From a virus, in IMG/VR virus record IMGVR_UViG_3300035670_000625, positions 1-37,958 of that record: 37,958 nucleotides of DNA. The stretch is one strand, 5' to 3'. Made by a program: the position numbers and the translations under genes. The stretch's first letter is position 1; each line of letters starts with the position of its first letter. The notes below the pieces were generated by a model. The model did no database searches. It saw nothing but the letters and a program-made list of their open reading frames with translations, and was not told the DNA's origin. Shown piece by piece: positions 30,649 through 33,634 of this stretch.

Positions 30649-30769
30649 TGAAGGCTCCTTTCGTTTCAGCACAATTCGGACAATCCAGTTAGTGCGTACA
30701 AATACCTTTACAGACACAATACCGATATGTAAACACCCAATTGTGCAAAAATGCACAACGGAGAATGTT
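30649..30769. promoter_or_regulatory. Divergent control region between the leftward and rightward early operons
   Basis: 121 bases separate the ATG of the Sak4-like gene (minus) from that of the HTH gene (plus). The region holds an 18-bp palindrome (30741-30758), a half-site GCACAA at 30669-30674, and an inverted pair TTTACA (30707-30712)/TGTAAA (30728-30733) whose arms could serve as opposed -35 elements. The matching -10 elements are weak, so promoter positions are not fixed. Confidence 0.6.
30741..30758. promoter_or_regulatory. Palindromic operator candidate
   Basis: TTGTGCA and TGCACAA are perfect inverted arms of 7 bp around a 4-base A spacer, ending 11 bases before the start of the HTH regulator gene. 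Size and symmetry fit a dimeric Cro/CI-type repressor site, and autoregulation is likely. A matching half-site occurs at 30669-30674. Confidence 0.6.
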
Positions 30770-30946
30770 ATGTTAGATTTATCGCAGATCAGGGAGCGAC
30801 TTCTGTACAGCAACCTGTACAGAGTTTCTAACCACACGGGCGTTCATAGGAATACATTAAGTGCGATTCGGCTGGGTAAGAACGCCAACCCAAGCTACGC
30901 AACAGTCAAAACATTATCAGATTATCTTTTAGGATTTAAAGCATGA
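30770..30946 (+). CDS. Small Cro-like HTH regulator
   Basis: A 58-residue protein from ATG 30770 (GGAG 6 bases upstream). The HTH spans about residues 16-40 (VSNHTGVHRNTLSAIRLGKN). The chosen start removes an unlikely N-terminal extension running back through the control region. It lies directly beside the palindromic operator and probably controls both divergent operons. Its stop overlaps the DnaA-like gene as ATGA. Confidence 0.7.
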   Translation: MLDLSQIRERLLYSNLYRVSNHTGVHRNTLSAIRLGKNANPSYATVKTLSDYLLGFKA

Positions 30947-31179
30947 CACCGAAAGAAAAGAACCTCGCAGACATTAGCGAAATAGCTTACAAGTACGGTT
31001 ACACCGCAGAGGACATTCTCGGTAAAAGCAGATACAAAAGATTGGTTATGGTGCGGCGTGAGTGCGTAGGTATGCTACGCGCCAAGGGCTACTCCACCAC
31101 AGAAATAGGGCGTATAATGAACAGGGATCACAGCACCATCGTAGTATCACTACAGACTTTGGCGGCACAAAATGGCTGA
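30943..31179 (+). CDS. Stand-alone DnaA domain IV-like DNA-binding protein
   Basis: A 78-residue protein whose C-terminal half reads like the DNA-binding domain IV of DnaA: KRLVMVRRECVGMLRAKGYS, then TEIGRIMNRDHSTIVVSLQ, including the signature RDHSTI loop that contacts the DnaA box. The AAA+ domain of DnaA is absent. It is encoded immediately upstream of a primase-helicase, and boxes resembling TTGTCCACA lie downstream of that gene. It could act as a phage origin-binding initiator or divert DnaA-box control. It overlaps the HTH gene by 4 bases and the helicase gene by 8. Confidence 0.8.
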   Translation: MTPKEKNLADISEIAYKYGYTAEDILGKSRYKRLVMVRRECVGMLRAKGYSTTEIGRIMNRDHSTIVVSLQTLAAQNG

Positions 31180-33190
31180 CCTAACAAACATCTTAGGCGG
31201 CTCATGGTCGCCTCCGGCAGAAGTCAAGGCTGACCCACCAGAACTACAGCTACGCGATGCCATAGAGCAAAGCGGCATGACACCACCAAAGGACATTGTC
31301 CTTGATGGTAAATTGCACCGCTTCAACTCCGGAACCAAAGGAAAGGGCGGCCACGATAAGTCTGGTTGGTTCATTGCCTATGGTGATGGGGTTCCCGCTG
31401 GCCGCTTCGGCTGCTGGAGGGCTGGCATGGAAATGACATGGAGAGCGGACGTTGGCCGTAAGCTGACACCATCCGAAGAGATGGCGAATGTCCGTCGCAT
31501 GTCAGAGGCCAAGGCCGCACGGGACATCGAACTGGCTAAATCGCGAGAGGTGGCATCGAACACCGTCGAGAAGATTTGGTCAGAGGCAACCGCTGCCCAT
31601 CCGGATCACCCATATCTTTCCCGCAAAGGCATTGGCGTCAATGGCGCAAGGGTCACAGGTGACGGACGGCTGGTTGTTCCGCTCTACAATCCCAACGGCA
31701 CTTTATCGTCGCTCCAATACATAGATCGTGAGGGTGGCAAGCTATACCATGCTGGCGGACAAACAGGCGGTTGCTCTTGGATGGTCGGGACAATGGACGA
31801 ACCCGGCGTTCTGTATGTAGCTGAGGGCTTTGCCACAGCAGCCACCATCCATCAGGTAATGGGTCGCCCATGCCTTGTTGCCTATTCGGCGTCCAACCTT
31901 GTTCCTGTCACTGGGGCAGCGCGGGATAAATACGGTCCAACCCAAGAAATCGTCATCGTGGCGGACAATGATGCGTCCAACACAGGTCAGAAATATGCTG
32001 ACCAAGCATCAGCCAAGTTTGGTGCGCGGACTATCACCCCACCCTTCCAAGGCGATGCGAACGACTATGTGGCGGCTGGGGGCGACTTATCTGTCTTACT
32101 TATCCCACCCGTTTCCGATTGGCTTATCCCAGCGGATGACTTCTGTACCAAGCCAGCGCCCATAAAGTGGATGGTCAAGAACTGGATACAGGAAGATGCT
32201 CTTATCATGATCCACGGGCCGTCAGGTGGCGGCAAGACCTTTGTGGCTCTTGATTGGTGTCTACACATAGCTTCCAGCCTGACCGATTGGAACGGCCACA
32301 GGGTTAAGAACGGAACAGTGGTCTATTTGGCTGGTGAGGGACATCACGGTCTACGTTCGCGTATCTCAGCATGGAAGCAGCACCACGGCGTATCCAGTGT
32401 CAATATGTGGCTGTCCAAGGCTGGCTGCGATCTGAACACGCCTGAAGGCTATATGAAGGTGGTCGAGGCCATCAGGGCGCTACCGCAACCGCCTAGCGTT
32501 ATTGTGGTCGATACCCTGCACAGGTTCCTGAGCGGCGATGAAAACAGCGCACAGGATGCCAAAACAATGATCGATGCCTGTGCTGCGCTTATGCGTGAGT
32601 TCAATTGCAGCATCATCCTTGTGCATCACACTGGCGTGTCAGATGAGGCACAGCACCGTGCGCGTGGATCGTCGGCATGGAAGGGCGCACTTGAAATCGA
32701 AATCAGTGTTGTCCCAGCCAAGGGCGATGGGCCTCTCCAGATCGTCCAGCGCAAGTCAAAGGATGCCGAAGAGGCCAAGCCTGTCTATGGCGAGTTGACC
32801 ATCGTTCCGATTAACGGCTGGTTCGATGAGGATGGCGATCAAGTTTCCAGTGCCGTCCTGACCCAGACTGAGGCTCCGCCTGAGACACGCAAAGAGGCAA
32901 AGCACATAAGCAACTTAAAGATATTTAAAAGCGCATGGGAGAAGTCAGGAAGGGAAGTCAGGGAAGATAAACCATACCTGACTAAGTCGGCGCTCAAAGA
33001 ATATCTGATGGAACAGAATATTGCTACGACTGAGCAGAGTGCGACTAAAATGGTACAAGAGGGTCAGACCAATAGGCTAATTGGAACGCTAATTGTGAGC
33101 GAAATTATCACCCCTCATGAGCATGGTTGGCGGGTGATTTGTCCAGAAAGTAGTGGGCAAATGATGATTTCCAAAAGTGAGTATAAATAG
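31172..33190 (+). CDS. Primase-helicase (Toprim + RepA-like ATPase)
   Basis: A 672-residue replication protein. Residues about 130-310 hold a Toprim-type module: the acidic AEGF (E218) and VADND (265-269) are the metal-binding elements of TOPRIM primases. From residue 340 a RecA/RepA-like ATPase follows, with Walker A GPSGGGKT at 349-356, Walker B VIVVDTLHR at 443-451, and a motif region LVHHTG with RARGSSAWKGA. No N-terminal zinc finger is visible, so the primase may be reduced. The C-terminal 100 residues may contact DNA. It is followed by the TTGTCCAC repeat cluster. Confidence 0.85.
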   Translation: MADLTNILGGSWSPPAEVKADPPELQLRDAIEQSGMTPPKDIVLDGKLHRFNSGTKGKGGHDKSGWFIAYGDGVPAGRFGCWRAGMEMTWRADVGRKLTPSEEMANVRRMSEAKAARDIELAKSREVASNTVEKIWSEATAAHPDHPYLSRKGIGVNGARVTGDGRLVVPLYNPNGTLSSLQYIDREGGKLYHAGGQTGGCSWMVGTMDEPGVLYVAEGFATAATIHQVMGRPCLVAYSASNLVPVTGAARDKYGPTQEIVIVADNDASNTGQKYADQASAKFGARTITPPFQGDANDYVAAGGDLSVLLIPPVSDWLIPADDFCTKPAPIKWMVKNWIQEDALIMIHGPSGGGKTFVALDWCLHIASSLTDWNGHRVKNGTVVYLAGEGHHGLRSRISAWKQHHGVSSVNMWLSKAGCDLNTPEGYMKVVEAIRALPQPPSVIVVDTLHRFLSGDENSAQDAKTMIDACAALMREFNCSIILVHHTGVSDEAQHRARGSSAWKGALEIEISVVPAKGDGPLQIVQRKSKDAEEAKPVYGELTIVPINGWFDEDGDQVSSAVLTQTEAPPETRKEAKHISNLKIFKSAWEKSGREVREDKPYLTKSALKEYLMEQNIATTEQSATKMVQEGQTNRLIGTLIVSEIITPHEHGWRVICPESSGQMMISKSEYK

Positions 33191-33215
33191 GGGGGTGGAC
33201 AAAGTGGACAATTCA

Positions 33216-33235
33216 GGACAATTTAGGAATTGTCC
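33216..33235. repeat. Inverted repeat inside the iteron cluster
   Basis: GGACAATT (33216-33223) and AATTGTCC (33228-33235) are perfect inverted arms around TAGG. They place two head-to-head iteron copies close together, suited to a protein dimer or cruciform. Confidence 0.7.
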
Positions 33236-33325
33236 ACCTAAAGTGACGCTTTTCTGCGGTTTTTAGATAGGGGTGGACAATTAACTGGACAAGGTGGGGG
33301 CAAGGTAGGCAGTACTGGACAGACA

Positions 33326-33351
33326 GGACAACACACCTATAGGTGTTGTCC
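33326..33351. repeat. Large imperfect palindrome inside the iteron cluster
   Basis: GGACAACA followed by CCTA on the left mirrors TAGG followed by TGTTGTCC on the right, with a 2-base CA bulge: 12 pairs with almost no loop. The core ACACCTATAGGTGT is itself a perfect 14-bp palindrome. It lies between iterons of opposite orientation. Confidence 0.65.
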
Positions 33352-33442
33352 AATTGTCCACCTGTCCTGCGGGGCGTCCTGACCACTTGTCAGAGATGCC
33401 TTGTTAGGGTAAAAGTTTTGATAATTTCAAAAGGAATTTTAT

Positions 33443-33634
33443 ATGAGTAAGAGTGAGAGTTGTGCGAAATGCTATTTCTTTAAATCCAGTGGATCTGGGT
33501 CTCATGGATTTTGCCGTAGATTTCCAGCAGTGTTTACACACATAGATGAGGAGACCGGAAGACCACGCTTCTTCAATCCAGTTGTTTCTCCATATTCATT
33601 CTGTGGCGAGTTTGAGGATATTGACGAAGGATAG
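33443..33634 (+). CDS. Small Cys-rich protein
   Basis: A 63-residue protein with cysteines in CAKC (residues 7-10), FCRRF and SFCGEF, a common small phage pattern able to bind one zinc ion. An AAGGA lies upstream of the ATG. It is the first gene after the putative origin. Spacing of the Cys residues recalls the protein at 26265, but the sequences otherwise differ. Function unknown. Confidence 0.65.
   Translation: MSKSESCAKCYFFKSSGSGSHGFCRRFPAVFTHIDEETGRPRFFNPVVSPYSFCGEFEDIDEG

Follow-up and report, generated by a model that had tools for sequence, protein, structure and literature searches.

A putative iteron origin behind a phage primase-helicase gene and the covariation of its repeat word with the C-terminal domain of the enzyme

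The alpha protein of phage P4 unites a Toprim-type primase, a helicase and a C-terminal winged-helix origin-binding domain in one polypeptide (Ziegelin and Lanka 1995; Yeo et al. 2002; both cited in PMC4234260). In SaPI Rep and the SCCmec protein Cch2 a short-iteron origin lies immediately 3' of the helicase gene and is read by the C-terminal domain of the helicase, and for Cch2 the reading of the AAGTG repeat by this domain has been shown by binding assays (PMC7581432). ORF904 of pRN1 combines primase activity with a C-terminal winged helix, and an essential origin is located just downstream of its gene (PMC4234260). No description of iterons for the Toprim/AAA_25 primase-helicase family was found in the literature searched, and one article, which deals with phages that bear related helicase genes, makes no mention of an iteron or an origin of replication.

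The window examined here is the whole of a virus record, 37,958 bases in length. Comparison with related loci makes it highly probable that positions 33195 to 33370 constitute an iteron origin read by the C-terminal domain of the primase-helicase encoded upstream, and that a small DnaA-like protein of the same operon is an accessory.

Replication operon and iteron array

The replication genes of the window are arranged on the forward strand in the order XRE regulator, DnaA-domain-IV protein and Toprim/AAA_25 primase-helicase, followed by the repeat cluster. The first gene (30773-30946) encodes an XRE/Cro-type regulator of 57 amino acids (HTH_19, 1.6e-4; phrog_18104, 7.6e-11), the second (30943-31179) the DnaA-domain-IV protein of 78 amino acids and the third (31172-33190) a protein of 672 amino acids. 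The last of these matched Toprim_3 and AAA_25 in Pfam, which bears out an earlier note on this DNA that had placed a Toprim-type primase-helicase downstream of the small DnaA-like ORF; the ATPase is of the RecA type. The three ORFs overlap end to start, with the stop codon of the XRE gene overlapping the start of the DnaA-like gene, and they look translation-coupled as a single operon. An inverted repeat upstream of the XRE gene, TTGTGCA-aaaa-TGCACAA at 30741-30758, is likely to be its operator. Directly past the array, at 33443-33634, lies a small cysteine-bearing ORF, and similar ORFs are visible behind the arrays of loci L011-L019.

Five exact copies of TTGTCCAC in both orientations had been reported behind the primase-helicase gene, and these were found at 33195-33361 and nowhere else in the record. 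Set against shuffled sequence, as the note had advised, their number was modest (mean of 1.33 in shuffles, with five reached in 2 of 100), whereas their clustering was beyond chance, since Markov-randomised genomes never placed more than two within 175 bp. When one mismatch was allowed, TTRTCCAC matched 56 times genome-wide versus 53 by chance, that is, at chance level. The cluster is real, but its unit is shorter than had been proposed: the natural repeat unit is GGACA, which accounts for all copies and of which TTGTCCAC is a sub-case. Eleven copies of GGACA are contained in 33197-33367, starting at 33197, 33206, 33216, 33275, 33287, 33317 and 33326 on the forward strand and at 33231, 33347, 33355 and 33363 on the reverse strand. 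The next best cluster in the phage has three copies, and 200 Markov-randomised genomes yielded no more than six per 175 bp.

The array also contains the two palindromes noted earlier. At 33216-33235 two inverted iterons form GGACAATT-tagg-AATTGTCC, and at 33326-33351 an inverted pair forms a hairpin, GGACAACACACCTATAGGTGTTGTCC, with an arm of 9; counterpart hairpins occur in relatives with other iteron words, the mean arm across the family being 8.3 against 5.0 in shuffles. A spacer motif, GGGGCAAG, lies between iterons at 33297-33304 on the forward strand and is kept in several word classes, and GGGGCA was found in the stretch downstream of the primase gene at 105 of 202 loci where shuffles predicted 19.4. 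The A+T-rich flank that had been described is likewise present (76% at 33400-33449) and is a candidate unwinding element.

The earlier placing of the cluster within the replication module, and probably at the origin, was upheld by comparison across 202 unique loci, 191 of which carried a full-length homologue of the primase-helicase. An array adjoins the 3' end of the gene in 152 of these 191. The canonical host DnaA box, TTATCCACA, occurs 116 times in the array-adjacent zone (from -40 to +400 relative to the primase stop, summed over loci to approximately 89 kb) versus 25 times in the remaining 1.31 Mb or so, an enrichment of approximately 70-fold, and this concentration of host boxes at the arrays supports origin function for the family. 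At the level of individual loci TTATCCACA was found at the origin in 50 of 202; it flanks the iteron arrays, after the primase stop, in L036, L037, L048, L051, L055, L056 and L064, which suggests that host DnaA takes part in initiation in such sister phages. The window array is, on these comparisons, probably the replication origin of the phage. Cumulative GC skew, the minimum of which had been put forward as an origin marker, was uninformative, with its minimum at the start of the record and its maximum at the end. A role as operator or transcriptional terminator, in place of an origin, is improbable: a hairpin does sit behind the gene, and iterons often autoregulate as well, but no T-run follows the hairpin in the arrays printed out and such a function is at odds with the enrichment of host DnaA boxes at the arrays of relatives.

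The DnaA-like protein and its relation to the array

The 78-residue ORF had been taken for a DnaA domain IV devoid of the AAA+ part, and Pfam, a PDB profile comparison and the predicted fold agree that it is genuine. It matched Bac_DnaA_C at 2.3e-10 with 40.8 bits against a curated cut-off of 31.5. Its profile matched DnaA in the PDB, where a phmmer search with the single sequence gave no match. The structure model (pLDDT 94.5) matched DnaA-DBD structures at TM 0.76-0.80, Foldseek returning 3pvp, 3r8f and 1j1v at probability 1.0. No AAA match was obtained in Pfam; the protein does not have the AAA+ ATPase domain of a DnaA initiator. In alignments, the E. coli residues R399, D433 and H434, which contact the DnaA box, are kept as R30, D62 and H63, and S64 stands in place of T435. 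The fold and main box-contact residues are thus common to this protein, bacterial DnaA domain IV and the DnaA-like proteins of phrog_27829, while in contrast to bacterial DnaA it has no AAA+ domain and is mobile between phage replication modules. At loci L097-L166 the gene turns up again in phages of unrelated background, where its neighbours are different replication genes.

According to the earlier note this protein binds the iterons (TTGTCCAC) and loads the phage helicase at the origin. We regard this as most improbable, although the protein is a real domain IV that retains the main contacts and shares an operon with the helicase, although TTGTCCAC resembles a DnaA box, and although among primase-bearing loci the gene accompanies only GGACA-core arrays (9 of 9). 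The co-occurrence in related phages that the note had looked to for support broke down, the gene and the array being separable. Among sister phages, compared at 85-95% identity of the primase-helicase, several are devoid of the DnaA-like gene, the XRE gene either abutting the primase gene or being separated from it by another gene, and their arrays equal those of carriers in richness. Relative to L011, which has no DnaA-like gene, the window primase is 95.1% and the array 96.6% identical; between the carrier L017 and the non-carriers L018 and L019 the values are 98.7-99.1% and 97.7%, which puts the identity of the array in sisters lacking the gene at 97-98%. No Bac_DnaA_C match was found in the whole records of L011, L013, L015 and L026 (36.9-41.2 kb, completeness not stated), and 12 of the 21 relatives of the GGACA class do not carry the gene. 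Other words occur in an identical layout where there is no such gene and, conversely, in L025 a DnaA-like protein 95% identical to that of the window accompanies the word GGGACAT. At 73 loci that carry the gene alongside other replication modules, TTGTCCAC was not enriched (10 copies against 16 expected), nor was TTGTCCACA (0 against 5 expected). On the persistence of the array without the gene, the different word in L025 and the lack of motif excess, the DnaA-like protein is rejected as the iteron reader. This corrects a tempting misreading, in which a cluster resembling DnaA boxes is assumed to be read by the product of an adjacent DnaA-like gene.

The slot between the XRE and primase genes, occupied by 30943-31179 in the window, is variable and may hold the DnaA-like gene, nothing or other genes. 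Its contents include, with names given by eye, a methylase-like ORF of 202 amino acids in L011 and L026, a PAPS-reductase-like ORF of 290 amino acids in L019 and a cytosine-methylase-like ORF in L024.

From its sequence, the 78-residue protein is most likely a binder of DnaA boxes, perhaps those of the host, and tentatively we would assign it a host-directed or regulatory role. It may bind host boxes at oriC or DnaA-controlled promoters and block or alter host DnaA, in line with the competition that the note had mentioned as an alternative, with a box-free phage origin escaping the effect. This is a tenable but uncertain proposal; it concerns the 78-residue protein only and is compatible with reading of the array by the primase-helicase. 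The box contacts are kept, the gene is found repeatedly in phages that are unrelated and differ in their replication modules, as a host-directed function predicts, and TTATCCACA is absent at the origin in all nine carriers, the window included, despite its presence in 50 of the 202 loci. Against this, boxes are also missing in 11 of 12 GGACA-class non-carriers, so that descent may explain their absence in carriers.

Covariation of iteron word and C-terminal domain

The words found directly after the primase-helicase gene in the 152 full-length cases fall into approximately 19 five-base classes and include GGTAAC, GGTACT, GGAACG, GGGTCA and GGTGCG. All classes begin with GG because the scan used GG-initial words, and unrestricted counting of six-mers in the first locus set returned the same words. 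Word labels were automatic and those of the GGGGG, GGGGC and GGGGT classes may be mis-phased, which would inflate the number of classes; the loci are related, and counts are therefore not independent. No word was found at 39 loci, 27 of which belong to a single clade (L063 type) whose C-terminus is deviant, and the correspondence of word and C-terminus therefore does not span the whole family. Loci L063, L065, L070, L072, L258, L280 and L293 have a C-terminus of this deviant kind, and no GG-initial array follows their primase gene. In L009 (6653-8545) a different N-terminal half, for which the nearest viral model is annotated Prim_Pol, is joined to the same helicase and C-terminal domain, with GGGACA iterons.

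Across the sequences compared, the iteron word tracks the C-terminal domain of the primase-helicase. In pairs whose cores were 85% or more identical, C-terminal identity averaged 0.87 when the word was the same versus 0.58 when it differed, and the helix block 624-633 was identical in 47% of same-word and 1% of different-word pairs. Parsimony required 51 word changes on the tree of the core (residues 1-565), 52 on that of a control block matching the C-terminal block in length (483-565) and 29 when the tree was that of the C-terminal residues 590-672; with 19 states, no fewer than 18 changes are possible. The window residues most associated with the word by mutual information were 632, 627, 619, 629 and 626. 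Natural swaps were found in L263/L274 (core 99.3%, C-terminus 47%), L207/L214 (98.8% and 39%) and L078/L088 (98.2% and 44%). The proteins of the GGTAAC (L036) and GGAACG (L037) types are separated by fixed differences at four positions only, namely 572, 626 (Q to V), 632 and 633, and a second small switch, from GGTAC to GGTCC, was observed in L226/L231. These patterns point to the C-terminal domain as the part that sets iteron specificity.

The proposed iteron-reading domain comprises residues 575-672 (32894-33187, forward strand) and is predicted to be a DNA-binding domain of the winged-helix type. The AlphaFold model has a pLDDT of 87.4, and structure comparison (VIA) gave a moderate match to ArsR-type and other winged helices, with Z up to 7.4. 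No Pfam family matched the domain, its profile had no significant match among PDB sequences and a Foldseek search of the model against the PDB returned nothing under 0.001. The specificity columns 626, 627, 629 and 632 fall where helix 621-627 ends and within the loop behind it (codons 621-633, 33032-33070, forward strand).

Because the C-terminal codons adjoin the array, one recombination could move both, and linkage by itself would be expected to produce part of the co-change. Several swaps do resemble block replacements. That the codons and the array simply recombine as one block, the domain not reading the array, is nevertheless very improbable: the new word is common to the copies of an array, whereas hairpins and spacer motifs are retained, and such concerted change calls for a reader. 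Moreover, the associated residues are concentrated in one helix and loop, residues 483-565 associate no better than the rest of the core, and V626 recurs with GGAAC in the distant L319. The XRE protein was also considered as the reader and rejected, since sister phages with the same word differ in XRE type and the window-like type is also found over a GGTAAC array (L028).

In the proposed mechanism the primase-helicase would bind the GGACA iterons through its own predicted C-terminal winged helix, assemble at 33195-33370, open the flanking DNA and then unwind and prime. The DnaA-domain-IV protein would be the product of an accessory gene in the variable XRE-primase slot and would not be needed for reading the origin. 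It is reasonably probable that this large phage family possesses an evolvable origin code, in which an uncatalogued winged helix reads GG-initial words and the two have switched jointly on dozens of occasions, through a swap of the module or a change of few residues, with the layout constant. If true, a switchable origin code could sort co-infecting phages into replication incompatibility groups. Studies of iteron specificity usually proceed plasmid by plasmid; approximately 150 arrays in some 19 word classes, with several swaps and one near-minimal switch, provide a data set for decoding the pairing of initiator and origin, which also bears on how a whole array changes its word in concert. 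This co-switching across the family is of more interest than the original reading of the cluster.

Relation to known initiator helicases

The precedents of Cch2, SaPI Rep and P4 alpha are the grounds on which we infer physical binding of the iterons, origin activity and assembly of the helicase. The pRN1 ORF904 protein is similar in its primase, its C-terminal winged helix (predicted in the window protein) and an origin 3' of the gene (proposed in the window), but pRN1 is an archaeal plasmid with a stem-loop origin and no iterons, whereas the window array consists of iterons. The P4 alpha protein, which acts with the ori and crr iterons, has, in the account cited above, the primase, helicase and C-terminal winged-helix architecture proposed here. 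By comparison with that account, the window helicase is of the RecA type (AAA_25), its iterons form one array directly behind the gene, and its family exhibits many iteron words and a C-terminal domain with no Pfam or significant PDB sequence match. The P4 origin-binding domain was not listed by structure searches with the C-terminal domain. Iterons directly downstream of the gene and a C-terminal reader, as proposed for the window protein, are features of SaPI Rep and Cch2; Cch2, which is treated alongside the D5 helicase family, relies on a primase-polymerase separate from it, whereas the window protein is a fusion of primase and helicase with an AAA_25 ATPase. Among the full-length homologues, 152 of 191 have iterons in cis next to the helicase gene, and the window module is best read, by analogy, as a variant of the self-recognising initiator helicases of the P4 alpha, SaPI Rep and Cch2 type.
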